From: Brachycybe producta
Taxonomy: Eukaryota; Arthropoda; Diplopoda; Playtdesmida; Andrognathidae
DNA: 64,000 nt
Reading direction: 5' to 3'
Assembly: GCA_036925085.1 (NCBI GenBank)
Contig: JAUPFP010000049.1
Location: forward strand, 806,001 to 870,000
Numbering within the stretch: position 1 is the stretch's first letter; each line of letters begins with the position of its first letter. The translations under genes and the position numbers were made by a program. Positions 21,316-52,100 of the stretch are shown one piece after another. The notes under the pieces were generated by a model. That model was given only the letters and a program-made list of their open reading frames with translations, did not search any database and was not told the DNA's origin.

Positions 21316-23910
21316 ATGGAAAAGTTAGTTCGAGAAATGCAACATCCTGAGACTGGTGTTCCAGTACGATCACAAAAGACATTCTTGTCGTCTTTGCCTT
21401 GTGTTTTTATGGGTAAATTCTACTATTATTCCGATTTCTTAATTAATGCAATTCAAATATTTATATATTTTACATATACAGTGGAATTTGTTAAACACGA
21501 TGACATATATTTTTGTTCCGGTTCCTTAAAATGACATCAAACTTTTTTTAAGGTGTAAACAACTCATATTAATTAAGCAGAATGTTTAATAAACATATCC
21601 AAACACTTTTCCCATTTAAATACTCAAGAAATATTTACTCTAATATTTATAAGTAAAGTGTAGGCCTACATAAAAAATGCAAATTTGCAACTCATAAAAC
21701 TTGAAAACCAACTGAATGGAATGACTGCCCTTTTAATAAAAAAAGGTGCAACCATACTATCAGTTCTAAGCAGTGCCATCTTAATGGGGGCCAACTGGGC
21801 CCTGGCCCAGGGCCTCAGTCAGTTAATTGTCACTATTTTCTGTATTTTTAAATCTGTAATTTCAATTTATCCGACATCAAAACATTTTACTATTTTAAAA
21901 AATAGGCCTATTCACTTATGTGATTTACTTCATAAAAGTCCTGTTCCAATATATACAATGGAAATCATCATGGAATCATCAATACTTTTTATATATAGAA
22001 CACTGGTTCCTTGGGAAAAACAATGAGTTTATTTGTAAGGCATGGTTGGGGGCCTCAAATAAATCTTGTGCCAGGGGGTCCACAAAAGACTTAAAGACGG
22101 CCCTGGTTGGGGGCCTCAAATAAATGTTGTGCCAGGGGGTCCACAAAAGACTTAAAGACGGCCCTGGTTCTAAGGCCCTTTGGCACGCAGGTGACTTTTG
22201 ACAATTAACGACAAAATTATGCAAAGGTCACTGGACTGTCGTCTCAATGTATTTGTTTAGGGAAAGACACCAACCAACCTTGGCACACAGGCGACTTTAA
22301 CTGTGTGTTCCAAGATTGGCGTCTTTTTTTTATAGAACGACGCCGACGACAGCCTAGCGACCTTCGACTTCATTTTGTCACCGAAAAGTCTTTCAAAAGT
22401 CGCCCTGTGAGAGCGACTGGGGTGACACTGTGCAGTATGACTACCAAAGCATGTCCCCCAACATACACACGAGATTTGAGTGCAACAAGAGTATCACTTC
22501 TCTGTCAGGTAAATAACTTATCTAGTGCCCCTCGTATTACATGTGTTATTATTATTTTATTAAGTTCACATGTAACAAAAATCATATAAAGGTGTTACAT
22601 AAAAATCATACAAATCTGCAATCTTAATTTTTTCCCCACATCAACATGTGATGCCATAATGGTCTATAGTTTCTTGAATCCTTTCTTACCAACGAATATG
22701 CTGCCCCCTAAACAATTTCTAAACTGACGCTTCCTAGTTGAGGTATTTAAATGATGATCTGTTTCCTAAAAATGCAAATCAAAACAGTCAATTGTTTTAA
22801 GATAGCTCACTAGAAAAATAAAGACAAGAGGCAGAACTAATAACCTCACTAAGAAGTTAGTTCTACTTGACTATTCATCTTTTTAAGGAGAAACAAAAAT
22901 GTTTATGCAAATGAGACTACCGAGACAAAAGACAAAAACTTAAAATTGTCACAACTGGCATTAAATTATTTTTCTAAGATACATTTAAAGAAATCTAATC
23001 ACGTACAAAACAAAGATAACAGTAATAATTCTTAAATCCCAAAGTGATTGCAAACTTTAATTTAGTAACGTTATCGAGGGATAAGTTATCCCTAGCATAT
23101 CCGGAAGCATATTTCCAGAACCAATCCCATTTTGGCAACGAAAATACGTAAGATTGCATGGGTAACCGCAACTCGAACTATGCTTATTCTGTCTTTCACG
23201 ATCAAAATTAAGAGTGCATTGAAAGTGTTTTAGAAACTAGAAGAGTAATTCAATCATATAAGAATATTTTCATTTAGATATCTTTCAAAATAAGCTTTAA
23301 GCAGACGAATCTATAGAAATTCTATTTCAATTTGCGTCGTTTCAGTATGCATTGCGGTTTTAAATAACGCATCCTTGACGCAAAGTGACGGGGTCTGGTT
23401 CTTATTACTAATGATTTGCTTAGACAAAAAAACCCATATCTTTTTGTATAGAAAAGATCTTCAATTCACAGTCATTTTCAGTATGTTGTTTTGGAGATTT
23501 TTTATGATTTTGGAAAAAAAATTGTGTTGTTTGGGGGGAGGGGGAAGGGGTGGGTTACAATTTCACGTGTAGACTCTGTACTTGTAGGGTGAGAGATCGA
23601 TGCTCATTTTTCATTATCCATTCACCTATGAAGCAAGAAAAATCCCTACTTAATAATAAGCATTGATCTGAATATCAATTAGACTTATATTTAAATATCC
23701 TCTTAATTACCTATATTTCCTTTGCGATGATTTACCATTATTTACTTGCAGTCTCCCTCATACGGTAATTTTTTTTAAATTTACATAGATAAATGTTTTA
23801 AATATAGAAAGAACATACATGTAAATAGTGATGTGGCTCATTTAAATAATTCTGCCAGAAAATTTAAGTTGACAAACAATGTGAAATTTGAGAAAACTTA
23901 AGCAACACAC

Positions 23911-23958
<48 letters not shown>

Positions 23959-24570
23959 ATCATATTCTTTATCAGTTACTTAAACATTATTCTATTGTCT
24001 TTATGTTCTCTAATAAGTGTTACAGGTCCTCCTGCCGTTTGGCTATAGGCCTATTATACATCAGCTCTCTGTTCTCAGAATGGAGTACACAGTATGTCAC
24101 AATATGTCTTGATATGTCACAATATGTCGCATATGATTAAACTAGTCTAGTTAGTTAGGCCGATTTCTTCAGTCGGTACTGAAATACCGCTGCCAAGGCA
24201 AACCGCCGCAACTCAGCGCTTAACCGGCTGCCTTCCATGACCTCCTCTGCCTCAAATGGCCACTTGTGTCTACTCGCTGTTCTCAAGTTTGTTTAAAAAT
24301 GACACAATTTGGAGGACATTCTTGTTACAAATTCTAATTTAATCTTTTCAAATGTTGTGTACAAAATAAAAACTTCCAAATGACACACATAAAAAAAATG
24401 ATAGATACATGCTTCTGAAACATACTGTACAATGAAATGAAATTAATACTTTAGTATAGAGTCCATTAGATTAATATTAGTTATATTAGTTATACATCTA
24501 GCTAACTACCTAAGAAAATAATTTACTACCCGGTAATGAATTTTAAAGAGTTGGTTGAGTTTTTTTTACA

Positions 24571-24633
<63 letters not shown>

Positions 24634-27600
24634 TCTCCTTTTCTTTCCTTCATTTTTTTGCTAACATAAAATTTTATGTTTCTAGGATACGACTTAATCG
24701 AATGGCTAATAGAAAGGCTGTCCCTTGAGGATTCTGGTAAGTTTAAAAGAGTATTTCTTATCCACTTGAAACACACTTGCAATGCGAATGAAACTTATGC
24801 CAAAATAACGGTAACATTCCACTTGCAAAATTTAAAAAATGTATATTTTTCTTCTTCTTCTTCTTGCATTGTTATGATTAAACATTTTTTTAATAAAGGA
24901 ACTTTCATTATAACTTTTTTTTTTACTGCATATTCATTTTCTAAGAAATAAAATGTACGTTCTCAAAGTTTTCAACAAAAGAGACTCCAAGTCTGAAATT
25001 ATTACAGTAGAGAAAACGAAATGCGTGTCTCATTAGCTTGTGTAGGTTTGAGAAACTGTTGTTCTTAGAAAATAATACGGTTAGAAATAAAAACTGTTAA
25101 TGACATTTTATTTTTCATTGGAGAAGAAAAAATTGTCGCTAATTTACTGAAGATTATTTTTTTCTCCAACTAAGAGATTATTTAATTAGCCTAGTTATTT
25201 TTTTTTTACAAGTTTCTAAGAACTAAAGTATATTTTTTTTTTTTCATTTAGTGGTTCTATTTAGGTAAATAAGGAACAACTTCAAATATTAAGTAGCGAT
25301 TAGTGGTATTTCATTCATCAGAATTACTTACTAAGGCAACCAACCTAAAAGCATGTTTTTTTGTGCAGAGAAACGGATTCTTTTTTTTTTTTTTGCACTC
25401 CATTGTTGCCCTGGATCGAAGGTTGTTTCCAGGTCAAGCGATTTTTTTTTGTGTGGAACGATTCTAACTGGGAAAACACATAGGGTTGAAGGTGGAGGCT
25501 AGCAGTGACCTAAAGGTAACGGGGAAAAGTATACATAATTCAACGGTTAAATAGCAAAAAGCATAATTATGCAGTTCGTGCAGATTACAGAAGCAGAACG
25601 GAGCGCAAACAGGAATTTACAAAAGGAGCGGAGAGATAAAAAAAAATTCAAAATTAACTTAAGTATTTAAAATAAACTATTCTCAATTGAAATCCATTCT
25701 TTACCATTTGTAAATCTATTTTTTTCTTGCGCTCCATTCCACTCCAAATGCATATTATGCTATTTAACCGCTCGTTTGTTTGCCCCTTTTAGCGCCTTTC
25801 ATAGTCTCTTGAAGGCTAGAAGTGACTGCTAGCCTTCACCTCCAACCCTCGACGTCGTCCCAATTAGAATCTTTCCAGCTGGAACACACACCCAACTTAG
25901 CATAATTTAAAAGGGTGTGCAATAAAAATGAACCCCTTTAACGAACCCTTTGAGACCAAAAGAATTTTGTGAATAGGAAAAATTACATCTTGTGAGATGA
26001 TTAGAGTAGAATCCAAACAAGGCATATCCATGCTGCATTTTAACCGTGTTGTACATGTATGTAAGCATGGGGAAATGGGTATTTCATGGTTCACTTGGTT
26101 TCTTTGAGAATCCATTACTTATGTTGATTTTGGACAACATTGTCCCTCTGCCATGCGCCCTCTGGGCTGCTAATTGCTGAGTAATTATTCAAATTGAAAA
26201 CGTGACAACAGCATTCAAGAAGCGATTGCAACTTTAATTATTGTTCAAAACGCGGTTTGTTTCCACTAATACCTTGTACACACACATGAGTTAAATGAAT
26301 TCAAATTAAATGTGTTTAGGTAAATTATACGGAATCCAGTTAAGGACATGAACCAAATAAAAAATTGACTTTAATTATTAATATTTTAAATTGAAATACT
26401 AAATCAATATTTTAAATTGAAATACTAAATCAATATTTTAAATTGAAATACTAAATCAATATTTTGTCAATAGTTTCTATATTATATTTAAGTATTTAAG
26501 TACTTCAGATTATTAACTGAATAAACTGAATTCGACATATTGTTTGTTTGCCCTTCACAGAGGGCTCTGTAGAACACGTTTATTATTTAAATGCATTTAA
26601 GAGCCTAGATCCACGTCCATCTTGTTGTTTTGAGCAGACGACAACGAGACAAATGAGTGTTCTTATATAGTGTTACTAAAACTGAAAGAAATCGCTTCAC
26701 AATCGCTCAATTAAAATACAGTAAAGCGCAAAATGCAATAAAAAGTATTGTTCTTCACGTGCTCGATTTATATCATTTTTGAAAAGGTCCTTCGTTTTTT
26801 TAACCCCATGTTAAATCCCATTGGCCCCAAAACCGTCCCACAAACATTTGAAAAACTCTCGTTAAAAACGAGTTAGAACAATAACAAAATAATTAGCACA
26901 AACTGTCATGTATTGGCTTCACGATGTTTCTTTTTTAAAAATTTTGAAAAGGTCCTTCTATTTTTTTAATAACGTTTAAAATAGTACGTTTTTAACTCCA
27001 TGTTAAGTCCCATAGGACTAAAACACCGACCAACAAAAGTTAAGAGAACTCTCATTAAAATGATTTAGAGCAATCAGAAAAATTAGCACGTACTAACACG
27101 TGTTTATTGCCTTCAGGATTATTCCTTTTTCTAAATTTTAAAAGGGCTTTCTATTTTTAAATAACATTTAAAATCTTACGTTTTTTTAACTCCATGTTAA
27201 TTCCCGTAGGGCCAAAAAACCATCTCACAAACATTTGAAGAACTCCCATTAAAAACGACTCAGAACAATCACACAAAAATTAGCACGTGCATTGATCTAT
27301 TGGTTTCACCATGTTTTCTTTTTATAAGATTAGCACGCGAAATTATTTTTCTATTAATTATTATGTGACTTCGAACCTGGAGAAAAAAACGTTAAAAAAC
27401 CGTTTTTCCATCAACAACGATCGCAGCACCTACATTCGGAGAAATTTTGAAATAAACGCTATATCTAGGCTCTTAAATTATCAGGTGTACGGTGTATAAA
27501 GTGGCTAGAATCGAGAGCATGTTTTTGGCCACGTCAAATTTCACTTTAACATTGTGTGTCTATGGCGTTCTAAGCATCTTTGAATACTCCTCTCCCCCCC

Positions 27601-30600
27601 CCCTCCCCCTCCCAGTTTTTCACAAAAGACTGGCCACAGATTGGTTACCTATTTCAGGTTTGCTGTATTTGCAAATTAGCTAAAATGTATGAAATGCAAA
27701 TAATATCATAAAAAGTATAAAAAACATATTTTATCATTGAAAACCAGTTTTACACATAATTTAAGTAAAACGCATTTAGGCAATAATTTAAATAAGCTCT
27801 ACAGAAACTGTTAATGACTGTTAAGGTAACATAAAATTGAAAATTAGGCAACAATAATTAAATGCACATACAGTGTACATTAAAAATGCCTGTGAACGTT
27901 TTAAGTAGGCACTTGAAAAGCACTAAAAGCATGATTTTTCTATATGTTTTCACTTTAAAACTATTTTGCCTTAAATTTAAGAATTTTTTTTTTTAGAAAT
28001 ATAATTTTGGTAAGTAGTTTTTGCTTTTTGTCAATACTTATCAATATTGTATTCCCTCCAAACTTGAATAGTTGCAATGTTTTAAAAATATTCAAATCTT
28101 TTCAGTTTTTTTTTCCCTTGTTGGATTAAGACCTCATATATACCGTAAAATTAATTATGTTTTCATATTTATTTTGATAATATGCAATTTTATATTATCA
28201 AAATAAATATATATTTCAAACAAAAAACAATATAACATCAAAAAAATATATTTGCCTTAAAATATTTTTGGTTAATTACTTTTGGATGATTAAAAACGTC
28301 CATTAAGTATATGAAAACATTTATAACGCAATTTAGATAAGCACAACAGTTCTTTAATACACCTTGGGAAATTTTTTTTTTGGTTGAATGACAAATTTGA
28401 TCCTTTGTTTCAAGACACATTTTCTAAATAAAAAAAATTGTTATGGCAATTATTTTTATTTATGCAGTCGGGATTTCAAGATAGAGGTGGCTCAACTAAG
28501 AGCTCTGATTAATTATAGTAATCTACGTCATAGGTGTGTGTAGCCAATAGATGACGCACCTACTTAGAGCTAAATTCCAAGGTGCGTTTTATACAGGTTA
28601 CGTATTACGTAGACGTAATGTTAAAAACCAATATAAATTTATATATAAAGGTAAAGCGTTTTTAGAAGAAAAAAAAATGCCAAAAGTGAGTGAAAAATCG
28701 TCTGTTTTTTGAAGCTAGAAGAAGAAATCTTGCATAAAATTTCATACATTCTTTTTGTGCGCTCATTGAATCGTATTCTAACTGAAGCACTAAATATAGT
28801 TTGCGCCATCTATTGGCCAAACTCAAGTTTTGGCAAGAAACGCTCCATAGAAAAAGCTCTTAGTTAAGTTACCTCTGTACATTTATCTTTCCAATAATAT
28901 CCCACAAAGTTGTTTCCACTTATGCCAACCTACCTTGATTCTGTATGTAATAACTAAATCTATGCCACCATCGTCCTGTAGAACCAACCCCAAGATGTCC
29001 CATCCCACCGAAATTTTATGTATTCCATTTTTGCCCTACTTATTTTCAACACCCTTGATTTCAAGACCTTCCTAGTTTCCTAAACCCTCATTTTTAAATC
29101 TGTCAGGATTCACTAACTAATGCTATGTCCATCTGCAAACAGCATAGAAAAAGGAGAATCCTGCCTGACCTACCCCAGCCAGTAATTCATCCAGTACCAA
29201 AATGAACAGATATGGACTAAGTTTTGAACTTTGATGCACCCCAATTTTAACTCTAAAACTACTGGAGGTCCCTCAGGCAGTCCTGACACTTGCCCCTGCT
29301 TCACCCTACACATGTCCCTCACAATATCTATTTGGCCCATCGAGAAAATGCCCAAATGCCCAATAGGAGACCAGTTCGCCCCTGGATAAAAAGAATACTG
29401 AAGAGAGGCCATAAAAGTAAAGCTCATTCACTCATTACATTTGTCTCTCTAACATGAAGTTGAGCTACCGCTATGTATATATACGTACATCTTGGTTAAT
29501 TTAATTAATGAAAACCTTTTTTAATGTATATTTTTCAGCCGAAGCCCTACACCTCGCAAACCTTTTATGCCAATATGGTTACTTCTTTCCTGTGCCTGAT
29601 TCAAAAGCTTTGGCAGTCAAAGATGACGGATCTTATTATAGATTTCAGGTAAAATTTAGTTAGAATCATAAATATTTTTCAGTTTTGTATTTCTAAAATT
29701 TTTAAATTAGAAATTTAGAACCAGCTTCTTCAGAAATTTGAATAAAACAATTCTCTTGACTTTTAATCTTAATCTTTCTTGCAAAGTTATCTGTTGTTGT
29801 AAAAATGCTATTACCACCTACAATAAATGTAGTGTGACTCAAGTATGTTTAGTTCTTTTTCTCTTTTTCTGATTTCCCCCCTCAAATAAGCTAACTGCTA
29901 AAGTGTTTACTGTAGCATCAAAAAGCCAAATTTTATAGGCTACACACATAAAATCACTGGCGTAAACCAGATAAGCTATTTTCTAAATGTCAAGTAGTAC
30001 AATATACATACATTCACATGTGTATATATATATATATACAATGTTTATATATGCTGCAGAAGTAAAGCTAAACGTTTTTGCCTCATAAATTATTGTTGCC
30101 AAATCTACCCTTTGTGTAGTTGTAATGCAAAATGTAGATCTGACAATTTCACGTAACAGCCTAGTGTTAGAAATATTTCTTACAAGAATTACAAGACAAA
30201 ACAATTTACAGACTTTTGGTATAAAAGTTTTTGTAAAAAAGACTGTTTGCAAAATTGTACAACATGGATATTCAAAAACTTTCTAACTATAATAATATAG
30301 TATGTAATATATAGTGGGCGTATTTTCTGACTATACATTAACTGATGTTTTCAATAGCCAATCAAATTTTTAAAATGCGGTTCGCAATTACTTTTGTTCT
30401 CCTTAGATTCTGTCTTGGCTTGTACTGAATGGGCTCACTTAAACAAAAAATAATAGCAGTAAAAGAACGTATTCAAAATCGATTTATTTTTCCTATATGA
30501 TGCTTTGCATAAAACAAGTTGCCTAATTTATCTTATCTAATATGCCAAAAAAAATTCTCTCAAAAACTAAAAACTTTTATGGGCCCACTTTTGTTCAAAA

Positions 30601-33600
30601 GCAAAAACATAAAACTTTTCATCCACAATTTTTGCGCTGGCGGTATTTATCTCCGCCAATTTCATTTCTGTCTATATATGTGATCGCAACGAAAAAGGTG
30701 GGTTGAGTCACTGAATGTTGAAGGATAGCTAGTATGTAATATTAGACTCGAGCAAGGATTATGGATTCATTGATTGGAAACAAGCTGTTTGAAACCCCAA
30801 AAGTGGGTTTCGACCCTATGTCAAGGCCCAAAGCTAAATTTACACCTGGCAATGGTTGCTAACCACAACAAACTTCCTCTATTGAAAAACACCATGGTTT
30901 TTTCTTGCATTCCAATCCTCTGGCTGGAAGAGGTAACAACAAGACTGAAAATTGGCCCAGACAAATAGAGTGGCCCCACTCACTGGCAGGGCCAGCCCGA
31001 CTATTAAGCTAACTTAAATGATCGCATATCACGCAATTGTCCCAGGGGTGCATTTTAACAAAATGTAATTTTTAGTGTTTAAGAGCCTAGATCCACGTCC
31101 ATCTTGTTGTTTTGAGCAGACGACAACGTGACAAATGAGTGTTCTTATATGGTGTTACTAAAACTGCAAGAAATCGCTTCACAATCGCTCAATTCAAATA
31201 CAGTAAAGCGCAAAATGCAATAAAAAGTATTGTTCTTCACGTGCTCGATTTATATCATTTTTGAAAAGGTCCTTCTATTTTTAAACAACGTTCAAAGTCG
31301 TTCGTTTTTTCAACCCCATGTTAAATCCCTTAGGATCAAAAACCGTCCCACAAACATTTGAAAAACTCTCGTTAAAACTGATTTAGAACAATAACAAAAT
31401 AATTAGCACATACATTCATGTATTGGCTTCACGATGTTTCCTTTTTATAAATTTTGAAAAGGTCCTTCTATTTTTTAATAACGTTTAAAATCGTACGTTT
31501 TTAAATTCCATGTTAAGTCCCGTAGGACTAAAACACCGTCCAACAAAAGTTAAGAGAATTCTGATTAAAAATGATTTAGAGCAATCAGAAAAATTAGCAC
31601 GTACTTACATGTGTTTATTGCCTTCAGGATTATTCATTTTTCTAAATTTTAAAAGGGCTTTCTATTTTTAAATAACATTCAAAATCTTACGTTTTTTAAC
31701 TCCATGTTAAGTCCCATAGGAGCAAAAAACCGTCCCACAAACATTTGAAGAACTCCCATTAAAAACGACTTAGAACAATCACATAAAAATTAGCACGTGC
31801 ATTAATCTATTGGCTTCATGATATTTCCTTTTTATAAGATTAGCACGCGAAATTATTTTTCAATTAATTATTATGTGACTTCGAACCGGGAGAAAAAACG
31901 TTAAAAAACCGTTTTTCAACCAACAACGATCGCAGCGCCTACATTCGGAGAAATTTTGAACTAAACGATGTATCTAGCCTCTTAATTTAAACAGGTACAT
32001 ACAAATTAAACGATTAGTAATTTTTAATTCTTACAAAAATTGATTAGGCCAATAATAAGTATAAATAATTTACCTTAATTGCTATTTTTCTGGTTTTGTC
32101 CGGCATTTTTGCGCACTATTATTTTTATTTTGCGTTGTGGTGGGGCTTGGAATGGATAGACAGATGAATGGGTGTGAAAAGGTAAGCCTGTTGTTGGTAG
32201 GCAGGATGGTGGATAAGTAGACAGATGGAATGGTACAGAATACGACTGGGGCGCAAATTTTAAGTCTCGCTTAAGGTGCAGGAGCGCCAATTTTAAGCTT
32301 TCGCCATGGGCGCATCAAACTCTTTAGGAGGCCCTGGGTATCAGTCCAATAAAGTGTCAAATACTGTCAAAATCGTCAAAATTATATATTTACTTAAATA
32401 GTAAAATGGGATGAATGAAGCAAAACCAGTAGAAACATTTTTGAATAGACTGATACACACTATTGAACAGAATATTCGCTTTCTCAATAAATTCATACTG
32501 AAAATATATTATAGAAAATTCACTACCCATAAGATGCCATTTTTTAATTTTGAAATTGGATAAAAATATAACTAGATAAATTGCCTACTGCAAAAGCCAC
32601 TGCGTTAGCAATACTGTTAATGTTGTAATAAACATTGCCACATAATTTAAATTTTTTTCAAAATGAAATAAACCATTCGACCAAACTGAAATAATAAACC
32701 AAAAATACTCATTCGACCATGCAACTGACCAACATGACCAAAGCGATCCACAATCAACCTAACCGGTCTTTTCAGCTAGGTTCGTTTGGTTGAATGGGTT
32801 ATTGGATTGAATGGGTCAACAAATGAATTTTTTTTTAGCATTTTCTATAAATAGTCCCACATCCAGGAAATCTGCTATGGAAAATAAAAAAAAAATCACC
32901 TAACGGCCATTGACTAACAACCAACCATCTTGTTCTTTGATGAATGCCGGACTGACAATGCCCACCCACATCCTGAACAAGAAACTATTGTGGATCCTCT
33001 TAGTAAACATGTCATTAATCGTGGATTTACATTACAGACTTTATTTTCTATAATAAATGTACATAAACAAGTTGTTAGACAACATAACATGTTGTTAAAA
33101 CAGGCTATATACTTTTAACAACTTAAAACTAGTAACTTTTTCTATATTTTATTGCTTTCATGTCTACCGTGTGATTGATTTTTAGATAAATGTCCAAAAA
33201 CAACTCAAAACTTGTATTGAAGTCTGCTCGTACTGTAAAGTACCGCAACAGCTTTAGGTCGTACAAACTACTATTTAATTTGATTAAGTGTTGTTATATA
33301 AATGAATGACCTAGCAAATCAGACTGGCTTCACATGAACCACTTGTGGTGTTACTTTGTGGTGCAACAAAGTGATTGGCGCAGCTTGATTTACACGGATC
33401 TGCTGTTGAAAATAGTGGCTTCCTGTCAGTGCAGGCCACTGGTATGACCTTCATCATGCCTGAAAAACAGGAAGTGGTCGTCACTTGCGGCACCACTCAA
33501 GCATTCATTGCAATTGTCGTGCGAAAAAAAAAACGGTGGCAGTGACTGGTGTGAACACCTCCTATGTAATCAATGGTTTGCGCTAAAAACGATCACTTTA

Positions 33601-34081
33601 TTTGGCGACACAAAGTGGCTCGTGTAAAGCCATACCAGGCCAGGCCTTATTGTATTTCCTGGCCTAGTAAACTTTAAAACAAAAAAAAACAGTAGAACAC
33701 AATTGGTGATCTAATCAAATCACTGTTTTTCAATTCCAGCTTGTGATTAAAAACTAATTAAAAATCGGTTACAGAATGTGCTGTTGCTTCACATATTCGT
33801 ATCAAAATAGTTCAGTCTTAAAATCTCTCATATCCAATTTAGAAAATTAAAAGGGAGACCCCCTTAATTGTCAGTGAACTGTGGGCCTCTTTGAGAGTTG
33901 TACGTAACTCAAGATAATAATTACAGTTCTATTGCAATCATTATTGGTGGCATTGAAAGGTTGGAGATACACGCAAGACTCAGACATACAGAAAGAAGAA
34001 AAAAAAGCTAGAAGAACTATTTTTGTTGAAATCCAAGATGCCATCATAAAAAAGTGAAATGCTTCTTCTACATTGAAAAGG

Positions 34082-34143
<62 letters not shown>

Positions 34144-37100
34144 AAGGCAAGAAAAAAAGAAATGGCCACCAACCAAATAGATGAAATATTGATTTTTCAC
34201 TTAGACCAATAACATGTATAAGAAGAAATAAAATTTCCCATGTTGTTGACTACATGCATACTGCAGTAAAACTAGAAACAGCAGCAACATACACACACAT
34301 ACAGAGACAGACAGACAGCACTATCAATAAATAATTCATCTAGGAGTAAATTCATAGAGAAAGAGAAAAGACCTTGGGTGATCCTTTGATGTATTTTTGG
34401 TGGTTCCAGAACTTTACAAAGGAAGCCCCCCTCCCCCCTACATTATTTTATAAAATATATATTACTTTATATGTATGACATCTGAATAATCTTGTTGTTG
34501 TTTGTGTGTGTGTAAAGTCTCAAAACTTATGTGCATCAAATTGTTTTCACTTTTTTTTCAGACACCCTATTTTTGGCCATCACAAAACCATAATCCAGAC
34601 AGCACTGAATATGGTAATAATAATTACACGTTAAAAATTTGTTTCATTCATAGCATTATTAACGAAATGTTATACACGGAGCAATTTTCCAGCAGATATA
34701 AATCATAATGATGTCTAAAAATAGAAACTTCAGAGTATAAAATCCAACACAGGATGAAGAATATTGCTCACATTTGGAGTCTTGTGAGAAACAAAATAGA
34801 TTTTTGAAAATATATTTTTTATTATTATAGGAAATTTTCAAGAAACTAATGGTCTGATTCCATTTGGTTACTAGTCATCACTGCAAAATAATCATGAATA
34901 ACCAACCAGTCAGTGTAGAGACATAGGGGTTGCATTCTTTAATGATTGCTAATTTAAAACCTACAACTTTCAAACACATCAACGTTTACATAAAACTTCC
35001 CATCTTAAAGTTCATTAAGGTTACCACTACCTCTTACTTAATAATAATTAAGAATACAACCCTAACAGCCAATTTAATTTCTATGGTAAACTAACTAGTC
35101 TTCTGTAATGCTTTATTGAGCATGGTTAACTTATATACATCATATACAGTATGTCGCATCCATTTGATGAAATTGTCCATTACTCGAAATGTTTGTCCAT
35201 TTCGCGTTTTGCATTAGGCCAATTTATGTTCATTTCGTGTTATGGACAATTACGCCAATTGGACGCGACATATATACAATTGTATACATGTGTGTGAGTA
35301 CAGTCGAAACCGCTTAAAACGAAATGGAAGTTCGAATTCAGAAATTTAGGTTACCATATCCTGAGCCATATTTCACAAAGAAACAAGACTGACAAGTGTT
35401 AGGTGATTACTGATCAGTGGACAGTCTTTGACACATAGCATCTAGCTATGCCACTGTAAACAAGCTTCATATGAAAGATCCAATGTGTTGTACATTAAAG
35501 TTGATATCCTAAAGAATGACTGAAATAGTCAATAGATTAAACTCAAAACGTCTTGATGGCCACTATCACACAAGCAACTTTTGAATTAAATTTAGAAACG
35601 ATAAAACTTGCAATCAGACATGCATTTCAAGAGTTTGTAATGTGATTTTGACATTCAACTTAATGAAACTTTCTCTAAAACTTGTGTGAGGCCCAGACTT
35701 ATGGAGTTGCACATGTTCAATTTATGAGAGACTTTTTATTATATACTCAACATAAATAGTAGTTTGAATTTGCATGCCAATTTTTTAAATTTCATTTTAT
35801 GTTCTTTTATCTGATTGGTTGATTTCAGTAAACAACTAATGAAACTAGTTGTAAAATAAGTTTCATGATTGACTCACATTATCGCAACAAAAGTTCAAAA
35901 GTTGCTATGTTTTATTTACTACATGTATAAATTGTTTACAAAATCGCCCGATTTTGTAAACAATTTATAGTAAATAAAACATTCTAAAGCCTCTACAGGT
36001 AATTTAGTTGTCACCCAATATCCAGAAGATAGGCAAACTGCACCAAGAGACCCTTCTGGTATATGGAGAGCTCTCAAGCAACATTGCCAAATAATTAGAG
36101 TAATGTTCCAAAGTTGCATAGGAAGAGGAAGAGACCAGAGACGAAAAACCATTGCCATCAGTGACAATGATGTAAATAACATAAGAAAACTTAATGTACA
36201 TATTATTTGTTTTCTTTTTTCTTAAAAAAAAAACTTCAGCTATTTATTTGGTGAAACGTTCAATGAGGAATAAACAAAAACATGGATTAGAGGATTATGA
36301 ACAGGAAACGTTAAACAAATTAAAGAAGGTTTTGTCTCACAAATGGGAATTTGTGGTAATGCAAGCAGAAGAACAATTAAAGTAAGGGTCATTTACTACA
36401 ATGCCGTTGCATGTACGAGTTTGCTATAAAAAAATAATTTACTCCTCGTTTGAATCTATCTTTAACAATATTTAGGTTATCAAAAGAACGGAAAAAAATG
36501 GACAAAATTGTTGTGGACAGTCAAGAAAGAGCTTTTTGGAGGGTTCACTGGGCTCCGGTAAGAATCAAAAAGTTATAGTAAAAATGCAGTTACTCTAATA
36601 TACAAAATCAATTCTGGAGTGATATGTACCAATTAATCAGAATGCCTAAAACAACAAACCAATCTATGAGATTATGTTGTTAAGGAATTATGTAAATTGC
36701 GTGTGTTGTTGAAGTATTTATTTTTTAAATTACATAAAGTAGACGATCACAGCAACTATTCTCACTTCGTGTAATTCTACATTTCTACTGAGACTCATGA
36801 GTCTGTATACACTGACTCTGCAACATGACCTTCACAAAATTGTGTTTTCTTCGGACTAAAAAATGTTGCAAAAACGATTAAAACGTTTATGGGATCATGT
36901 TGCAAAGTTCCCGCTTCTAAAGCAAAAACTTTTGCTTTTTTTTTCCCATAAACAAAATGTGTAGAAAGAGGAAAACGAGTCAGTGCGCATACAGATAAGA
37001 GAAAACAAAAAACCTCGCCTCCCCTTAAAGACCTTATTCATTTGTTATAAATTATAATGATTGCAACCATGTTTTAGTGGAAACGCAAAAATCGTCGTAC

Positions 37101-40100
37101 ACATGTATATAGATTCATTTATACTAGTAAGCCAGTCGTGCAACTTGCACGGAATGAAAGGGACTTTTAACAAGGTGTTCTATAATTTCTATACTGGGCT
37201 ATATGCAAATACTACTATAGAAAATATGAAGCAATTAAGTATACATACATGGCGTCAAACACTATGAAATGCACAGTGTTTATATGCCATAATAATTGCT
37301 CATCCATGTAATGCAAAGAAAATCCCAGCCTGTGCTTTATTAGTGAAAACGTATGGAGGCGAGGGTTTTTTTTTTATACCTTTTTCATGACTTTTGCGAT
37401 TTTTCACAGAACATTTCTGTGGTGTTTTCAGGTAGATGATAGATCAGTTGAAAACCTTTAATTTGGCATTTACGTTGTGTCAAAGTTTGCTTTTGTAGTA
37501 TAGGCGCAATTGAAATCCCCCTAAATCTATTAATAGAGTGGATATTTTCATTAAAAATGTTTACATGAGCAGTCTGAGTGGAACCGTACCTTAACACGCA
37601 CAATCTAAACAGAAGCAACAAAAAAAAAAGATTTATAAAAAAACCCACAGTTCCAGACTTATCTAGTAAGAGTAGTTGCAAAGAAATCGAACACATTCAT
37701 AAACAACCATTCCATGGCTACAACTATGTTTTTATTACTACGAAATCAATATCTCGATAGTTTTGTCTGATGAAAGTCGAAATGAAAAGAAGAAAGAAAA
37801 AAAAAACCCTAGAAGATTGAAAGAAAAGTGAACCCATTGTGTTGAATGGTTAACCAAGCAAAACTTACAAGTCAACACTTGATAGCAAGATATTAATAGA
37901 GACATATATTGATCAACATTGCAATAAAATACACGAAATAAACGTAAATCTACGAGTAACCGAATGACGGCTCTCGTATAGTATGTATACAAAAACATTC
38001 ATATTTTCTCTTTTTTTTTATCTAACTGAAATGTTCAGCCCGGATGTGTTTCCAGTCTGGAATCTTGTCCCGTGCCTTTACGACAAAACTGTTCTCGGAA
38101 ACGTAAGAAAAGTCAAGAAGATTTTTATCGCGAGGTACAAAATCAACTGACTCGAAATATCTTATTTCGAAGACATTTTTCTTCTTCTTCTTTTTATCTC
38201 GTTTTTGTGTTACAGATAAACCATTTGAAAGAGTTGCTATCGAGAACAAGATTAAAAGTTTCACAAGCTGTAGAAAGGTATTTCGTTATTTTATTTCCTA
38301 GACATGTACAGTATGTATAATAAATAAATACATCGTGAAATGTTAATGTTGTCTCCCTCCATTCATTGTGCTGTTGAATTATAATGTGCATATATGAATG
38401 TGAATTAGTTTCATGAATTATTTCTTTAGTTTGATTCACCACTGTGAAGTCTATGCAGAATATGATCCTTTTGTTGTTGGAGTTCAACCATATAACCCAT
38501 GGATAACAGAGGATACAACTTTCTGGATACTTAATGAAACAGTGTAAGTCAATAATCCATCAATTAATTAATAATAACAATTACACATACAAAATATTGA
38601 AAACTCAAAGAACCCGGGGTGTGAGACCCTGACATCAAATCGCCACGTGTTGCGAAATAATGGCCATGAAAGTGTGTGTGTGTGTGGCCAATTTGATTCA
38701 CCCATATTTTGGTTCCTTTTTGACTTGACTCGTTCAAACTGTCTCCTATGGTAATTTTCCGCCTAGACGCACGTGGCGCGCGCGCCTAGGGCCTCCAGTT
38801 TGTTAGAGAGCCCCCAAAATTCAAAACTTTAGTCAGGTATATACAGGGTGTTCATAAAGTCCTTGCGCAGTGTTAATTTGTAATTTAAATTCACTTCTAA
38901 AATTATAACATATAAACCATCTGTAAAATGCAACTGAAAGGGACACAAAACCAAACTCTCTAAACAGTCTTTGTGCTAAGATAACAAAAGTGATTAGTGC
39001 AATAACTCAAACGTAGCTGTAGAACGTGTTTGATAAACTTGAGAAACGTGTTATTCTTTGTATCCAAAAAAATGGCGGATACGTCAAAAAGTTAAATATG
39101 CTAAATCCTCAATAAATTCCATTTCGGTCGCATTTTACAGATTGTTTCTATCTTATATAGAAGTGAAGTTATTAAAAATTAAAACTGTAAAAGGACTTAA
39201 TGAACATCCGGTATGTACATGTATATTTTTTCTTAGAAGAGTTCATATTTTTAATGGAAAAAATAAAGCAATTTATATTTGTAGGTTTTTTTAATTTTCC
39301 TAATGGATAACTTTATGAGACAAATAAAATATTGACATAATTATTTTTAATTTTTTTATTAATTGGAAAGAAATTGTCAAACACCAGGGTCACATATATC
39401 TCACAGCGCCCAGGGGAATCAAGAGATATATAAACGCGCCATTGATTGTGTTATTTTGTAAATTTATTGAGTGCGCAATGAATGTCTAAATATTTACAAA
39501 GTATGGCGAATTTCACTTCTTATTAGCCAAAACTATGGCTATATTGATACTGAAGTTGCCCACCCAGCCTGAGTGGGATTTGCGCCAGGATAACTCACGC
39601 TTCATATCCATATGAAGCAATCCATTTTCAAAGTTTTTCCGAAGAACGATCTTCTTGGGTCACTGCTGCATTAACTAAATTTGGATGTAATAACTTCATA
39701 ATTATTTAATTTTTTAACTTTCAAATTAGCAACATGTATGTTGACAACTTAAAATGAAGTATATGCTACCACTAGTAGTATATACTGAAGATAATAATAA
39801 TTAATAATTAATAATATTAAGCTCTAAACGTGGCGATTAAAATGAGATTGAAATTTTTCGAACACATTTTGTGAAAATATTGGTAGCTAGCGATTCGATT
39901 CTATTTTCTGAGAAATGTTTTAAAAAAAAAGGCTTTATAAGTAACAAAAAAATGCAAAAATGCAAAATGAAATAGAACTCTGGTTAAAATGCGTTTTAGA
40001 GTAAATGAATCACCTAAGTACGGTGACCAAGAAGTACAAACAATATAGAAAAACTTTATTCTTTACAAATCCATGACAACATGCAGTCTTCAACAACAGC

Positions 40101-43100
40101 AACAACACAAAGTGTCTGACAACACTAAAAATAGACCACAACAATACAAAATTTGACACAGCAATAACAAAATTTCACAACACAAAAATCCTAAAAAAAA
40201 ACTGTTTCACCTCAAAAATTTATTCATGATAAACATTCAAAATTTTGAATTTTATATACATATACTACATACATATGCTCTAAATGATAATATAATGAAT
40301 TCGCGTACTGTTCGTATTTAGGTTTACTATAAATGTTCGTATTACTAGACTAGCAAAATTGCATATACTGTAGTTGCACGGCAAATTTTGTTATTGTGGC
40401 GTATTTTGCACAGTATAGTTTGGAGAAACATACAATGTAGAGTTGTAGTGGATTTTGTATACTAAGCTTAATGAAGTGATTTCTAAAGGGTGTTATGTGG
40501 CGCACTAGTATGCTGTGCTAAGATTTTTTCAGGAAAAAAATACTGTGCCCTCAACCACTTTCCAGCCTTAATGTAAGTGAATGCACCTCTCAGACACAGT
40601 AAGTATGAGAAAATTGAAATGAAATATAAAGTTTGGTTGAAACAAAAAAAAATAAGTGTCTGACGACATCCAAAAATGACAAATTATTTCCAATTGCCAC
40701 AACAAAAATATATTTACCCTAATATGATTCACTTATACTGATTTTCCAAAATTTTCTTAAAAATTTTAAGAAAATTTCTAAACGCATTGTTTCATTAAAA
40801 CAGCGCTAATAAGTTTCTGGTACACTTTTTTTTTTACATCCCAACTCAAATTCAAGAAGAAAAAAACCTTGACATTTGAATATCAACTTGAACACTCTCA
40901 CTCAGTTGGGTTCCAACATAAAAACACTTTGAAGAGACTCGATATAACGGTTTTTTTATGGTTGGAATCATGTTTAGAGGGTTCAAGTTCAAGATTCAAG
41001 TGCCTAATTTCCTTCTTGAATTTAGGCCTATATTGATTATGGTTATTATGAGTGGTGCCGTGTTTATTACTATTGATTATTATTCAGTTTAACTCATAAT
41101 TATTGTTTTGAAAACGGCTTGTTTTTAATTTCGCTTGTTTTGTTTTTTATATGTGTATTTGGCAGTGTTGAGAATCCGACAGAGAAACGCGTGAAAAGAT
41201 GGGCCATTAGTCTGCACGATATGCTGTCAGATCCAAAAGGCATTCAGGAATTCGAGAATTATTTGCGCAAAGAGTACAGTCATGAGAATATTCGATTTTG
41301 GCAAGCAGTCGAATTCCTGCACGCAACCTCACGAGCAAACGTCGACAAAATAGTTAAGGAGATTTACGAGTGAGTTATAAAACTTCACAATAATTATTCA
41401 TCCCACACAATTCGTAGAAAAGCAAAATGATTTTTTTTTTCATTGTCAAGCAGCACCATACCTAAGTTCTATTACAAACAATCCATTTTTTGACTTTCAC
41501 AATGACCATTCTCCAATTGCAATTATATTTTTGCTTTACTCGTAACTTCATAAGTGATATTTGCTTTTTCAAATAAGAAATATATAACATGAAAAGCTTG
41601 CAAGGTCGATTCCGCATTATACCGAACGTCATCGTCGTAGAACATGCTGTCACCGACACGTCAATTAACCTTTCGTCGTCCATGAATGGCTGCAAAGGTC
41701 ACCACATATTCGTACTTTCAGAATTGGCCGTCAACGTCACGAACCGTCATGTCAAACTACTCTTTTCAAAATCGTCCACCGTCCCGTCATGTTGACGTTC
41801 CGTGACGGTCAGATGATAATATTGCCGTACTTAATGACTTAATAAATATACATCCTCGTTAGGGAAGACACTGGCATTCAAATTCTTTAAAAGGATTAAT
41901 GGCTAGACCTGGTGCATATTTTGGTCTTTTTTCCCAGAATGTTATTAGAGTATGGAATTCTCTTCCAGTTGATATTATTAGGAAGATTTCAAATTAACAA
42001 TGATGTCTTTGTTTTACCTGAACGACAATCATTTGTGATCAGATGTACTGAGTTGAGTTGAATTGAACGCAAACGATACCACATATAAAATACATTGTAT
42101 CATGTTTTGACGTGATGGTGACAGTACATTCCGTGACGGTGACGTTCCGGATAATGTGAATCGACCTTTAAACTTTAAGAAGTAAACAAGCTAATAATTT
42201 TTGTAACAAATTTTAAGAATAAAAAACTAATTAATTTTGACTTTACGTTTTTGTTTCCATTCTAAACAGAGAATTTCTAGTTGCCGGTGCTCCCTGCGAA
42301 GTAAACCTCGACAGTAAGACGGTGGAGGCGACTCAAAACTCAATGAAAAGCCCAACCCGGTTCACATTTGATGCAGCCCAATTACACGTTTATTCTCTTA
42401 TGAAGAAAGACAGTTATCCGAGGTTCATACGATCGGACGCATACAAAAATCTTGTGTCAAATGCAGTGCAACCATCTCAAAAGAAAAGGTTTCAACGCAA
42501 TTTTCAAATATTTAGCAAATGAATAATTCAAAGTAGATTTTCTACATGTAACACAGTTTTTATATAACTGTAGATTCATATAATAATTAAAGTAACGATT
42601 CTTACATAAAAGCTTCGTAAGTATCACCTGACTCATCCTGAGAAGAAGCTTGTGACGTAATACGGATTGACCAAACATTTAGAATTGTGACATGTTAGTC
42701 TGACAAAAAAAAATAGATGATATCAAACGTTTTCATGAAGGATTCTTGAATTCTATTGTCATTATGACACAATCCTAAATTGTTGTTAATCCTTATGATG
42801 TCACAAGCTTCTTCTTAGGATGAGGCAGGTATACTTTGGCATTTGTTTTTTATGTAACTTTTATACGTACTGTAATGTGTCTAAAATTGCAGTGTAACCA
42901 GTGCAAGCTTGCTAATAATTGTAAATTAAAATTTTAAGCAAAAGTCAATTTTTTTTTTGCAATTGATGTCGTTTTTCGTAATTTTCTGAAAAAAAATGAC
43001 ATATCTCTCTTATTTTCCAAGTGGGAATAATTCCTGTCTTCAGTGGCGTTAGCCACAGGGTGCTGTTTGCTCCCGGCGCCAATCTCCAAAAAGGCGCCTT

Positions 43101-44126
43101 CAAATAGCATTTTAATTACAGTATTAAAATTTTATTTCCAAGTTTCCTGATTAATACTTAATAATTTTATATTAATTAATTCGGTAACAAGACGAAGAAA
43201 AATGCACTTTCAGTAAAGAAAAGAATGTCATTTGAGTCTTGATTAAGCTATCTTAGATGTTAGTTTCGCCTCTAACCAGGTACTGCAACTGATAACACAT
43301 TTTTTGGTTTACTTACGAATTTATATTCTAAAGAATGTTTTTTGGGGGAGGGGCGCACGTTCTACACCTAAAGATTACTGTTGAGCCATCAACTTTAATG
43401 GATAGATGAATGAACCTTTTTTTTCTGATCAAAGATTGTTGTGTTGGTCAAACATAGGTTCTTCAACTTTGGAGTCGTCAAAAAGAAGAATTCGCCATCT
43501 GGAGGCAACAGTGGAGGAGCCAATGGTAAAATGCGTGGCAGCAATACCAATTTAAGTGGAAGTACTAGTGATCTTCACAACCAAAGAGAAGATACATGGA
43601 CAAGTGGGCCTCCAAATGTCATCGGTCATTCCCTCAGTGCTAGTAATTTGCACGACTTAGATGGCAGTGAAAGTCCATTCAGGTAAATGAAAAAAATTTT
43701 CTGAATAAGAATTTCTGAATATTTAACATTCAACCCATAATTCATGACAGGCTGGCTTCTCCAAAAGACAAAGGCAGTGGCTACTTCAAAGGTGGTACAC
43801 TGAACGTGTCCAAACCTAAAGCCTTGTCGACTGAATCGTGCAACACAACTCCTAGTCGTAACATGGATCTAACGCTCGAGGTGCCTAATCAGAAACGATC
43901 ATCACTGACTCCACCGGATACAAGACGATCAAGTGGAGGAAGCAGCCAAGAAGCTAGTCCAGTCGGAAGCCAAATTTGTATTTCTACCGAACATCTAGCT
44001 GTTAACATAAAAACAACAGGAGCTCCTGTCACAAAGACTTACAATGAAGTGTGTCCATGGGAGGATATGGAACTGCCTACAAAATCAAATGATGTTTGTT
44101 GCCCATGGGAAGATCAGTTAAAGTAA
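21316..44126 (+). CDS. RGS9: R7-family regulator of G-protein signalling, RGS9/RGS11-like (13 exons)
   Basis: GTPase-activating protein for Gi/o-class alpha subunits; R7 RGS proteins act as obligate dimers with G-beta-5. Coding exons: 21316-21412, 24686-24736, 29539-29648, 34562-34613, 36240-36381, 36476-36557, 38039-38134, 38216-38277, 38430-38543, 41166-41369, 42270-42488, 43458-43682, 43751-44126. All junctions are GT..AG and in phase, giving 609 codons plus stop. Order: DEP (residues 1 to about 90; MEKLVREMQ start, [16 protein letters not shown]), DHEX ([27 protein letters not shown]), GGL (about 190-265, with [12 protein letters not shown]), RGS (about 280-405; [34 protein letters not shown]). 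A Ser/Gly-rich tail ends in two CPWED motifs. DPKG, AIYLxKR and the tail favour RGS9/11 over RGS6/7. The ATG lies immediately after an AG acceptor, so an upstream coding or leader exon, or trans-splicing, is likely. AATAAA occurs at 44149-44154. Confidence 0.93.
21770..22166. mobile_element. hAT-like short element with CAGGGCC-type ends, one end duplicated
   Basis: The left end CAGTGCCATCTTAATGGGGGCC resembles the reverse complement of the right end (CAGGGCCGTCTTTAAG). CAGGGCC-type termini are common in hAT-like non-autonomous elements. The right 61 bp are tandemly duplicated at 22044-22166. It lies in the first intron of the RGS gene. No transposase frame is visible. Confidence 0.5.
23914..23957 (+). 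repeat. (CT)n microsatellite in RGS intron 1
   Basis: Uninterrupted CT dinucleotides of about 44 nt. Confidence 0.95.
24573..24627 (+). repeat. (CT)n tract just upstream of RGS exon 2
   Basis: About 55 nt of pure CT followed by T/C-rich sequence, ending roughly 60 nt before the acceptor of the 51-nt exon at 24686. It extends the pyrimidine-rich region of that splice site. CU-rich RNA is the known preference of PTB-type splicing repressors. Confidence 0.95.
26380..26465. repeat. 26-bp tandem repeat, three copies plus a partial
   Basis: Three consecutive identical 26-bp units beginning AATATTTTAAATTGAAATAC, plus eight bases of a fourth, in RGS intron 2. Identity between units implies recent expansion. 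Confidence 0.95.
26601..27472. mobile_element. TTAA-flanked non-autonomous element with internal tandem array, copy 1
   Basis: The ends are GAGCCTAGATC and ATCTAGGCTC (inverted), flanked by TTAA at 26597-26600 and 27473-27476, as expected for an insertion at TTAA (piggyBac-type target). The interior carries three diverged units of about 185 bp (from about 26776, 26943 and 27127). Each has CCATGTTAAxTCCC, AAACATTTGAA (AAAAGTTAAGA in unit 2), AACTCxCxTTAAAA and AATTAGCAC in that order. No protein frame is apparent. A second full copy lies at 31083-31981. Confidence 0.8.
28481..28880. mobile_element. Inverted-repeat element with AGAGGTxxCTYAACTAAGAGCT ends
   Basis: The left end (AGAGGTGGCTCAACTAAGAGCT) matches the reverse complement of the right end (AGCTCTTAGTTAAGTTACCTCT). 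The right half, including TTTGCGCCATCTATTGGCC, recurs at about 50455-50570 in EEF2KMT, so this is a dispersed family. No coding frame is visible. Confidence 0.6.
29110..29300 (-). pseudogene. Degenerate non-LTR retrotransposon reverse transcriptase fragment
   Basis: Read on the minus strand, the fragment has the RT block [19 protein letters not shown]. In another frame a little downstream it has [11 protein letters not shown], corresponding to the catalytic FADD region. Two defects are visible: a frameshift between the two blocks, and Gly in place of the second catalytic Asp (FADG). Stops follow. It is a dead LINE fragment in RGS intron 2, opposite in orientation to the gene. The clade cannot be assigned from this length. 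Confidence 0.75.
31083..31981. mobile_element. TTAA-flanked non-autonomous element with internal tandem array, copy 2
   Basis: Same family and orientation as the element at 26601-27472: identical start GAGCCTAGATCCACGTCC, TTAA on both sides (31079-31082, 31982-31985) and three internal units of about 185 bp starting near 31262, 31449 and 31635. The two copies are highly similar along their whole length. This copy lies in RGS intron 3, on the other side of exon 29539-29648. Confidence 0.8.
33324..33632. mobile_element. Inverted-repeat element in RGS intron 3
   Basis: The left end TGGCTTCACATGAACCACTT is matched by the reverse complement of the right end (TGGCTTTACACGAGCCACTT), with further matching blocks around CAAAGTGAT. 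About 310 bp with no coding frame, so a probable MITE. Confidence 0.6.
34084..34143 (+). repeat. (AG)n microsatellite in RGS intron 3
   Basis: About 57 nt of AG dinucleotides. Confidence 0.95.
35150..35271. mobile_element. Short inverted-repeat element, TATGTCGC ends
   Basis: The ends TATGTCGCATCCA and TGGACGCGACATA are inverted. AATTGTCCAT and CGAAATG blocks are also mirrored inside. Length is about 122 bp and a TA target is possible. It lies in RGS intron 4 (34614-36239). Confidence 0.65.
35908..35981. repeat. Long near-perfect hairpin in RGS intron 4
   Basis: TGTTTTATTTACT, a 5-nt insertion, then TATAAATTGTTTACAAAATCG on the left pairs with the adjacent reverse complement on the right. 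This gives about 33 paired bases and almost no loop. It lies roughly 260 nt upstream of the exon at 36240. Confidence 0.8.
36890..37380. mobile_element. Inverted-repeat element in RGS intron 6
   Basis: AAAAACCTCGCCTCC near 37008 is mirrored by GGAGGCGAGGGTTTTTTTTT near 37352-37375. Arms are short and ends unclear. It is a likely non-autonomous element; the outer limits given are approximate. Confidence 0.4.
38842..39213. mobile_element. Tc1/mariner-like short element
   Basis: The left end ACAGGGTGTTCATAAAGTCCTT matches the reverse complement of the right end (ACCGGATGTTCATTAAGTCCTT), and TA borders both sides. Termini of the form CAGGGTGTxxxxxAAGTCC are common in mariner-like elements. The roughly 370-bp interior has no recognisable transposase. 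It is in RGS intron 9. Confidence 0.6.
41602..42169. mobile_element. Inverted-repeat transposon in RGS intron 10 with nested LINE fragment
   Basis: The left end AAGGTCGATTCCGCATTATA matches the reverse complement of the right end (AAGGTCGATTCACATTATCC). Mirrored CGAACGTCA/GGAACGTCA, TGTCACC and CACGTCAA blocks follow, so the inverted repeats run for about 65 bp. The middle is a foreign piece of retrotransposon (annotated separately). It lies between the two exons that encode the RGS domain. Confidence 0.75.
41860..42000 (+). pseudogene. C-terminal fragment of a non-LTR retrotransposon ORF2
   Basis: An open stretch reads [20 protein letters not shown] then [12 protein letters not shown] and stop. 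The FSQRVVxxWNSLP-type block is the standard C-terminal tail of LINE reverse-transcriptase proteins. It sits inside the inverted-repeat element at 41602-42169. Only the 3' end is present, as expected for a 5'-truncated insertion. Confidence 0.65.
42621..42834. mobile_element. Inverted-repeat element, GTATxACCTGxCTCATCCT family, copy 1
   Basis: Ends: GTATCACCTGACTCATCCTG and, inverted, GTATACCTGCCTCATCCTAA, each followed by AGAAGAAGCTTGTGACRT. Size is about 214 bp. The same family occurs at 52681-52893. It lies in RGS intron 11. Confidence 0.75.
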
Positions 44127-49135: not shown

Positions 49136-52100
49136 TTATGCTAATGGTGTTATTTTGTACAGTTTCACTTGATACAAGGGATCGTAAAAAAATAAGTTTC
49201 CTGTTTGATGTGTTACCTCGTTGCATAAAAGCCCTTGGGTTTCTAAAATAGCATTTCAAATAAAAAACTTAACTATGCAAATACACAAAAAAAAATTCAC
49301 AACAAGCGGCCAAAAGACAGCTAGGCTCTAGCTGAAGCTAAATAGTGATTCGTGCTGACACGAAACACACCCAAAACGAAAATAGCAAAAGGTAAAATAA
49401 AATAAAACAAACTTAACTGTAACATACCTGTTTCTGTAAGGAACTTCTGGATGGTTTCTTCATTACGTACAGTACAAGCAACGTATGCAACAGCATTTCG
49501 ATGCTCCGTAACTTTTGCTTGAGAATGGTTTTGCGAAATAACAATATTTTTTCCATGTAGAAAATGTGACAAACAGTTTATAAAGTGTGAAGTCAACTCA
49601 ACGTCATAAACAACATCTGAAAGGGAAAATATCAAACCAATAAATGAACCGTTCTCGAAGAGATTATTTAAGACAAGAGACACTCCAGCGTGCACTTGCT
49701 GTACGACGCTATAGATCTATGCAACGTTAAGTAAGATTTGACGTCACCAAAACCACAGTTTCGATTCTGTATACCTTATTTCCTTCAAACTGTGTTTAAA
49801 CAATAATTGAATATGCAATCACTTCTTGAATGCAGTGGCCATTTTTAAGGTAGTTTGGTTGCAATATTCAAAGTGGTATTTTTTATTTAATACGATTTTG
49901 AACTATGCTAATTTCCTAGACCCATGTTAAAGGCCATATACATTAAAAAGGTCCATTTTGCTGACAATTTTTCGGTTCTTCACAAACATCTTTGAGCTTT
50001 AAGTAAAATTATGTATCCAGTATGCTTTTTGGGTAGTCGGGTAATTTTGTAACGTTTCCAATTGACGTTTGGTTGCTAGAGCCATTGAAGTAACTTTGGA
50101 ACTGCCAAATTGACTACATCTCCCGTTAAAGGTCATTGCCCTCAAAAATGTACATTGTGCAAACTACCTTTCGTTCTTTGGGAACATCTTTCAACTTTAA
50201 GAAAAAAATCTTTGTATTCTTTAATATGTTCTTCAAGGTCTTAACATAAATATTTTCGTTACATTTAGAATCGCCGTTCGGTCCCTAGAGCCATTTGAGT
50301 AGCTTTGGAACCACAACACTGACAACGCCTCATGGCACGTGCAACACTAAAGAGTGTCAAGGTCAAGATAAATTTATAAAAGTAAATCAACTCCATGTTA
50401 GAACAAAAAATATGAAAAGTGAGCAAAGAATCATCTGCTTTTTTAAGCTAGAAGGTATACTGTTGAATCGTATTGTAACTGAAGCAGGTACAATTTGCGC
50501 CATCTATTGGCCACACTAACTTTTGGCACAACATGCATCATAGGAAGAACTCTTAGTTGAGTTACCTCTGTCTATTTACCATGGACAAGGTTCGTAACTA
50601 ACCAGCAGCGAGGATAACGTCCGCAATGAAAGACCCGCTGAGGTTCCAACTGCTCTCATTGCTCCAATCGATATTACCTATCAAAAAATCTGTTCCCACA
50701 AAACGAGTGCTTGCAACTGTTAAAAAATACGGCGTAAGACATATTTAAACAAATTTTTCGTACGTAATACTTTACCTGAATTGGAAATGTCCTCCTCCTT
50801 ATGCTGTCTGTTCAACTGCAAGTTGTAAAACAACTGGCCCAAAACTTCGGAATGATAATCGCTGTAAAAGTAAGAACGAGGCCTACAAACTTTGGCTATG
50901 TAAAATCCTGTGAGACCCAAACCACATCCCAATTCGAGAACCCTTCTGAAAGAAAACCAGATTTGAAAACGGTTAATCGGTTTACTTTTTCTTTTCAGTT
51001 TTTTTTTTTAAATGGTGCATGACAAAGAGAACGCGAAATAACTGAAATAAATCACTGAAATAAATGAATTCTCTACTAAAACATCAAGTTTGTTCAAAAT
51101 TAATTTAAAAATAAACTGAAAGAGTAGATACTATTTGTAATGATATGTTTAAAAATATTTTTTTTTCCTTTTTACGCCATGTTTGCTATTTGAAATCGTA
51201 AATTTGCGCTTTTAAATTGTTTTAAAAAGTTCCTTTTTATGAAGGCGTCTATTTCTGTCTATTTTTCTTTTCAAATAGCATTAGGATGGTTTTAAAGTGT
51301 AAAGACCTCTCTGTCTTTCAGGTGCAAAATGAAGAGAAACCTGAATGTGTTTTAAGAAACTAGAAGGGTAGCTCAATCACTTAATTGTATTTTCCTGTTA
51401 ATATCTTTCAAGCGGACGTTTTTGTCTATAAGAAATTTATTTTAAAAAATATCAACATGAAAATACGTGATTGAGCTACCATTCTAGTTTCTAAAACACT
51501 TTCTGGTTTCTTTCAATTTCGCTGCTGAAAAATATGAAAACCAGTGTTTTAAAAAGCAAAGTAAACCATCTTAATACTATTCTCCCTTTAGTGCACCATG
51601 TTTTGTTTTTGTTTTCAATTGAGAATAACACAGATTTACTTTTTACAGAACAATTCCTTGTTATGAATACAAAAATCGGCTAAGAACTTAGCGGCCTGAA
51701 AATAAAGAAACCGGACTTCACAAAAGATTTTAAAATCAAAGTAAAACTGGATCATATTTCACCTGCCAAGTAATTAAACCGGTAGAGCCTTGGCTTACGA
51801 TCGCTTCGTTCTCTCTTAAAATCACACAGTTTGAAATATCATCATCCTATCGGTAGAAGAAAGAAGAAGAAAAAAAACTCATTAAAAACTGTTCTTAATT
51901 GGTTATACATGTATAAAAAACAATAAACATCTTAAAATACAATAAAATAGATCTTGTGTCCGAATTTTGACTGATTTTGCTCCTCGTTTTCTCTTAGTAC
52001 GTTTGTGTATTCCACATACAATTCTTCACAGATTTCGATTCCATTGTCTTCCAACTGTGTCGAAAAACAAAATTAACATTTCATTAGAACGTGAATCGAG

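Follow-up and report, generated by a model that had tools for sequence, protein, structure and literature searches.

Two CPWED motifs at the C-terminus of an invertebrate R7-family RGS protein

The window analysed here, a stretch of 64,000 nucleotides, contains an R7-family RGS gene (Table 1). The gene model yields a protein of 609 amino acids, and all of its introns (12/12) are of the GT...AG type with fitting phases. The model is weakest at two of its donors, GTACAA in exon 7 and GTTTCA in exon 11, and a further first exon may lie upstream of the modelled gene. Exon 13 (43751-44126) is a single open frame up to its TAA. Read-through of the weak exon 11 donor (42488-42522) leads to a short alternative C-terminus, and a short isoform resembling RGS9-1 is possible. 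Within an intron of the same gene we observed two repeat blocks (26596-27480 and 31078-31989), which lie about 4.5 kb apart, are 83-97% alike in their matching parts and contain internal repeats of about 194 nt.

Three further coding stretches were found in the window. On the minus strand, positions 58744-59052 contain an exon of a ubiquitin-conjugating enzyme (Pfam UQ_con, 8.8e-23), presumably UBE2S, and positions 50723-51007 a lysine methyltransferase-like exon (Methyltransf_16, 1.1e-5). On the plus strand, a glycine-arginine-rich frame (54356-54682) gave only a sub-threshold FYTT match in Pfam; it resembles the N-terminal part of an mRNA-export protein of the ALYREF/THOC4 kind.

Table 1. 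Features of the RGS gene in the window
Feature	Position	Strand	Basis or remark
R7-family RGS gene (putative RGS9/11 type)	21316..44126	+	13 coding exons modelled; phmmer and Pfam
Exon 10, N-terminal half of RGS domain	41166..41369	+	exon model, Pfam
Exon 11, C-terminal half of RGS domain	42270..42488	+	weak donor GTTTCA
Exon 12, begin of the polar tail	43458..43682	+	acceptor ATAG, donor GTAAAT, phases match neighbours
Exon 13, last coding exon, carrying both CPWED copies and the stop	43751..44126	+	open frame
CPWED copy 1 (VCPWED, residues 585-590)	44052..44066	+	TGTCCATGGGAGGAT
CPWED copy 2 (CCPWED, residues 601-606)	44100..44114	+	TGCCCATGGGAAGAT
AATAAA, polyadenylation-like signal just past the stop codon	44149..44154	+	sequence pattern only

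The encoded protein combines, in this order, the domains DEP, RGS_DHEX, GGL and RGS, all above the Pfam cut-off. The presence of the whole set in one protein bears out the assignment to the R7 RGS proteins that had been made from the sequence alone. The narrower claim of that sequence-only reading, namely a protein of the RGS9/11 type, is backed by the distribution of shared sites but not by overall likeness. In the phmmer search (RGS7, 4.2e-122; RGS9, 2.9e-109) the bits favour RGS7, and in a comparison of 267 columns the window protein is 51.3% identical to RGS7 and 44.2% to RGS9. The exons of a second R7 gene of the genome, located on contig C2, share 69.3% identity with RGS7 over the 267 columns. 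When these four sequences were compared, without RGS11 or an outgroup and with the exon ends of the C2 gene placed by eye, the grouping of the window protein with RGS9 (and of the C2 gene with RGS7) was favoured by 14 sites, and each of the two alternative groupings by 3. RGS9 looks fast-evolving, because its identity to each of the other three sequences is only 44-45%, and the site pattern is therefore preferred over plain identity as a guide.

According to one report (PMC5795056), RGS9 and RGS11 probably diverged in the second of the vertebrate genome duplications; an invertebrate gene on the RGS9 side would therefore be co-orthologous to both. For Ciona a single R7-type protein has been reported, which is closest to human RGS7 (PMC2752167), and the worm protein EAT-16 shows no clear closeness to any single human R7 protein (PMC3357403). 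An invertebrate RGS9/11 class is therefore not established by these two reports. A search with residues 1-410 of the window protein gave no match in viral_contigs; in genome_contigs it gave seven pattern matches, one of which was confirmed at 27% identity in a bacterial MAG and is not informative.

An invertebrate origin of the protein, also proposed from the window sequence, agrees with the mitochondrial code of the genome, which fits table 5. The mitochondrial COX1 gene (contig C442) contains four in-frame AGA codons, and eight AAA codons are found at sites read as lysine. The vertebrate mitochondrial code, where AGA is a stop, is ruled out by these codons. The AGA sites are usually occupied by serine, with which the tunicate (Gly) and echinoderm codes misfit and table 5 fits. 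Tentatively, the COX1 protein suggests a protostome, perhaps a lophotrochozoan. Additional COX1 matches are located at C1:12697416-12698753 and at four places on C17; these are either nuclear insertions or the result of misassembly.

The 13-exon model gives both motifs the same residue numbers as before, in the last exon ahead of the stop, and both copies are read in the exon 13 frame; the earlier claim that the motif is duplicated within the RGS protein itself holds. The motif tryptophans are W588 and W604, spaced by 16 residues. They lie in a tail of about 200 residues after the RGS domain, in which 72% of the residues are polar or disorder-promoting (56% in residues 1-406) and which, judged by this composition, is probably disordered. 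The CPWE core is identical to that of the Trp70 segment of PDE6-gamma and of the GPR158/GPR179 motifs, as had been suggested. We confirmed the segment, TVICPWEAF, in chain C of crystal entry 1fqj, which contains a PDE-gamma fragment together with the RGS9 RGS domain, and in other chains. In 1fqj, Trp70 of PDE-gamma is reported to contact active transducin next to switch II of G-alpha. The motif is of a known docking kind, placed here twice on an RGS protein. A phmmer search with 32 residues of the tail gave no match in PDB, and the PDE6-gamma family PF04868 is absent from the four Pfam families that match the RGS protein with E no higher than 1.

The two copies differ in their surroundings. 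Copy 1 reads VCPWED and agrees with the pattern [VI]CPWE, whereas in copy 2 the core is preceded by C instead of V or I. The 8-codon units N-[ED]-V-CPWED are alike at 20 of 24 bases if an indel of one codon is allowed, as would be seen after a local duplication. This likeness, the V found before the core in copy 1 only and the single CPWE of the PDE6-gamma chain make it possible, at a clearly lower probability than the reading preferred below, that copy 1 alone docks G-alpha, with copy 2 being a tandem duplicate without a separate role and the biology being that of a single motif as in RGS9-2. However, a comparison of the 48-base repeats without an indel gives just 22 identical bases out of 48, and copy 2 retains the whole CPWED with two silent differences from copy 1 in the core, a count that is biased by the choice of the stretch for protein likeness. 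The intact core with silent differences suggests that copy 2 has been held.

A different partner of the motif was considered as well. According to one report, GPR179 carries the sequence EVCPWEVTE, which is given there as a match to the TRAF6 motif xxxPxExx[FYWHDE] (PMC11291154). This pattern is also matched by copy 1 (EVCPWEDME), and by nothing else in the tail. Nevertheless, docking of TRAF6 or something else in place of G-alpha is improbable, since copy 2 misfits the pattern and the residues C, P, W and E held in common with PDE-gamma exceed what the pattern demands.

Two CPWE strings in such a tail are very unlikely by chance. The expectation from the tail composition is 0.00035, and when the 199-residue tail was shuffled 200,000 times, at least one CPWE arose in 62 trials and two in none. 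That the CPWE strings are coincidental, or that the terminal exon lies outside the mature RGS mRNA, as the weak exon 11 donor with its short alternative end on read-through might suggest, is very unlikely in view of these shuffles, of the fitting phases of exons 11, 12 and 13, of the 124 open codons followed by a stop and then by AATAAA, and of RGS9 being a class where a CPWE-type motif is expected.

The genome assembly (295 Mb, 442 contigs) was searched for codon patterns of the motif. The search finds the exact spelling within one exon, so that an intron-split motif would escape, and simple repeats or highly frequent words may be passed over. With the 18-base VCPWED pattern three matches were obtained, one of them in the window, and none with its reversed control. 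For the 15-base [VIM]CPWE pattern there are 15 matches (control 11), and for the bare 12-base CPWE pattern 123, against 409 in the reversed control, which is of another composition and therefore rough. Single CPWE strings elsewhere are thus not clearly enriched. Places were obtained for the first 100 of the 123 matches, contig by contig up to C45 and including C2, C6, C24 and C36. We read 15 of the 123 strings: two in the window, ten on C35 and one each on C24, C26 and C36; the genome may thus encode additional CPWE proteins.

The VCPWED at C24:1121923 stands in an open stretch of 33 codons; no gene was recognised by eye in the surrounding 9.9 kb and the place looks intergenic. The one at C26:1774792 lies within a frame of 73 codons and may belong to an exon. 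The ten CPWE-type strings at C35:910226-914564 belong to a repeat region and were discarded, as CPWE occurs there only in other frames of up to 126 codons. This region (C35:909800-915200) has an open frame of 1788 codons with low-complexity repeats of the GDVSQLVPGN type.

Further RGS-domain matches are found on contigs C13, C46, C7 and C30, and presumably represent other RGS classes. CPWE, [VIC]CPW and PWED are absent from both strands of the RGS stretches examined on C46, C7 and C30. In the R7 paralogue on C2, neither PWE nor CPW was found in forward frames of at least 15 codons over 49.5 kb (C2:5700100-5749600), and among the matches listed the sole CPWE string of this contig is about 4 Mb away. 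An exon-by-exon profile search of the genome for PDE6-gamma (PF04868), which could miss a gene split into small exons, gave nothing above the cut-off (best E 6.4).

Seven-helix exons similar to GPR158/179 are located on C6 (5.7e-9 to GPR158), C24 (5.2e-12) and C36 (8.7e-4). The three loci stem from six of 21 class C receptor matches, which were chosen by eye and compared with PDB. In an exon-level search, no CPWE codon string was found in a plausible exon up to 90 kb from them. Among the matches listed, more than 1.7 Mb separate the receptor loci on C6 and C24 from the closest CPWE strings. A CPWE at C36:1220928, 95 kb downstream of the GPR158-like exon and on the same strand, was rejected, with stops 9 codons before and 4 codons after it.

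At a probability of roughly 0.6, we read the C-terminus of the window protein as a built-in PDE-gamma-like affinity tail, as it has been postulated for RGS9-2, with a putative docking site that is duplicated. To our knowledge, the high affinity of the RGS9 class without PDE-gamma has no settled explanation. One report contains the postulate that the long C-terminal extension of RGS9 does the job of PDE-gamma (PMC5795056). A mechanism for the affinity tail can be outlined as follows. The RGS domain would grip the switches of a GTP-bound G-alpha-i/o, and W588 or W604 would sit in the groove beside switch II, at the place that Trp70 of PDE-gamma takes on transducin. Docking of the tail in cis would then let the protein bind the active subunit more tightly, so that no separate effector adapter is needed; hydrolysis would be accelerated by the RGS domain while the tail tryptophan holds the active subunit. 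Two copies may provide a higher local concentration of docking sites, or a grip on a second G-alpha.

With its many polar residues the tail is probably flexible, and the nearer motif follows nearly 190 residues past the end of the RGS domain; reach should thus not be limiting. A G-alpha-i-like gene on contig C5 contains the usual switch II stretch, DVGGQRSERKKWIHCF, and the exon after it appears close to mammalian G-alpha-i.

A more far-reaching version is speculative and rather doubtful: the RGS tail might be the ancestral home of CPWE, with PDE6-gamma and the vertebrate receptors having gained it later, and the two copies might allow one RGS complex to keep two active G-alpha subunits or to pass them on. 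If this were true, an effector-mimic would reside in an RGS tail without PDE6-gamma and beside GPR158/179-like receptors lacking CPWE. None of the literature matches listed was seen to describe an invertebrate RGS protein whose tail has a doubled CPWE. Two intact motifs of the PDE-gamma type where no PDE6-gamma is recognised allow the affinity-tail idea and the origin of the motif to be tested in a simple way, and the doubled motif is a useful lead on how the PDE-gamma-like tail arose.

The affinity tail proposed here can be compared with several known systems. PDE6-gamma has one CPWE, which is followed by A, whereas in the window protein D follows; PDE6-gamma is also a separate effector subunit, whereas here the core is built into the RGS protein. 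RGS9-2 has the R7 domain order and a long tail after the RGS domain in common with the window protein, but carries one CPWE (in the human protein a single ICPWE immediately before the stop) in place of two CPWED. Proteins of the RGS6/RGS7 type, including the C2 paralogue, belong to the same family, and the C2 gene is without CPWE in the stretch read. GPR158 and GPR179 are described as partners of the R7 RGS proteins in PMC8611064. In GPR179, the residues EVCPWE are identical to those of copy 1 (EVCPWEDME here, EVCPWEVTE there, the latter from PMC11291154). For GPR158, a review says that two conserved VCPWE motifs regulate the interaction with Go (PMC9027133). This arrangement is like the doubled CPWED of the window protein, but it is located on the receptor and not on the RGS protein.
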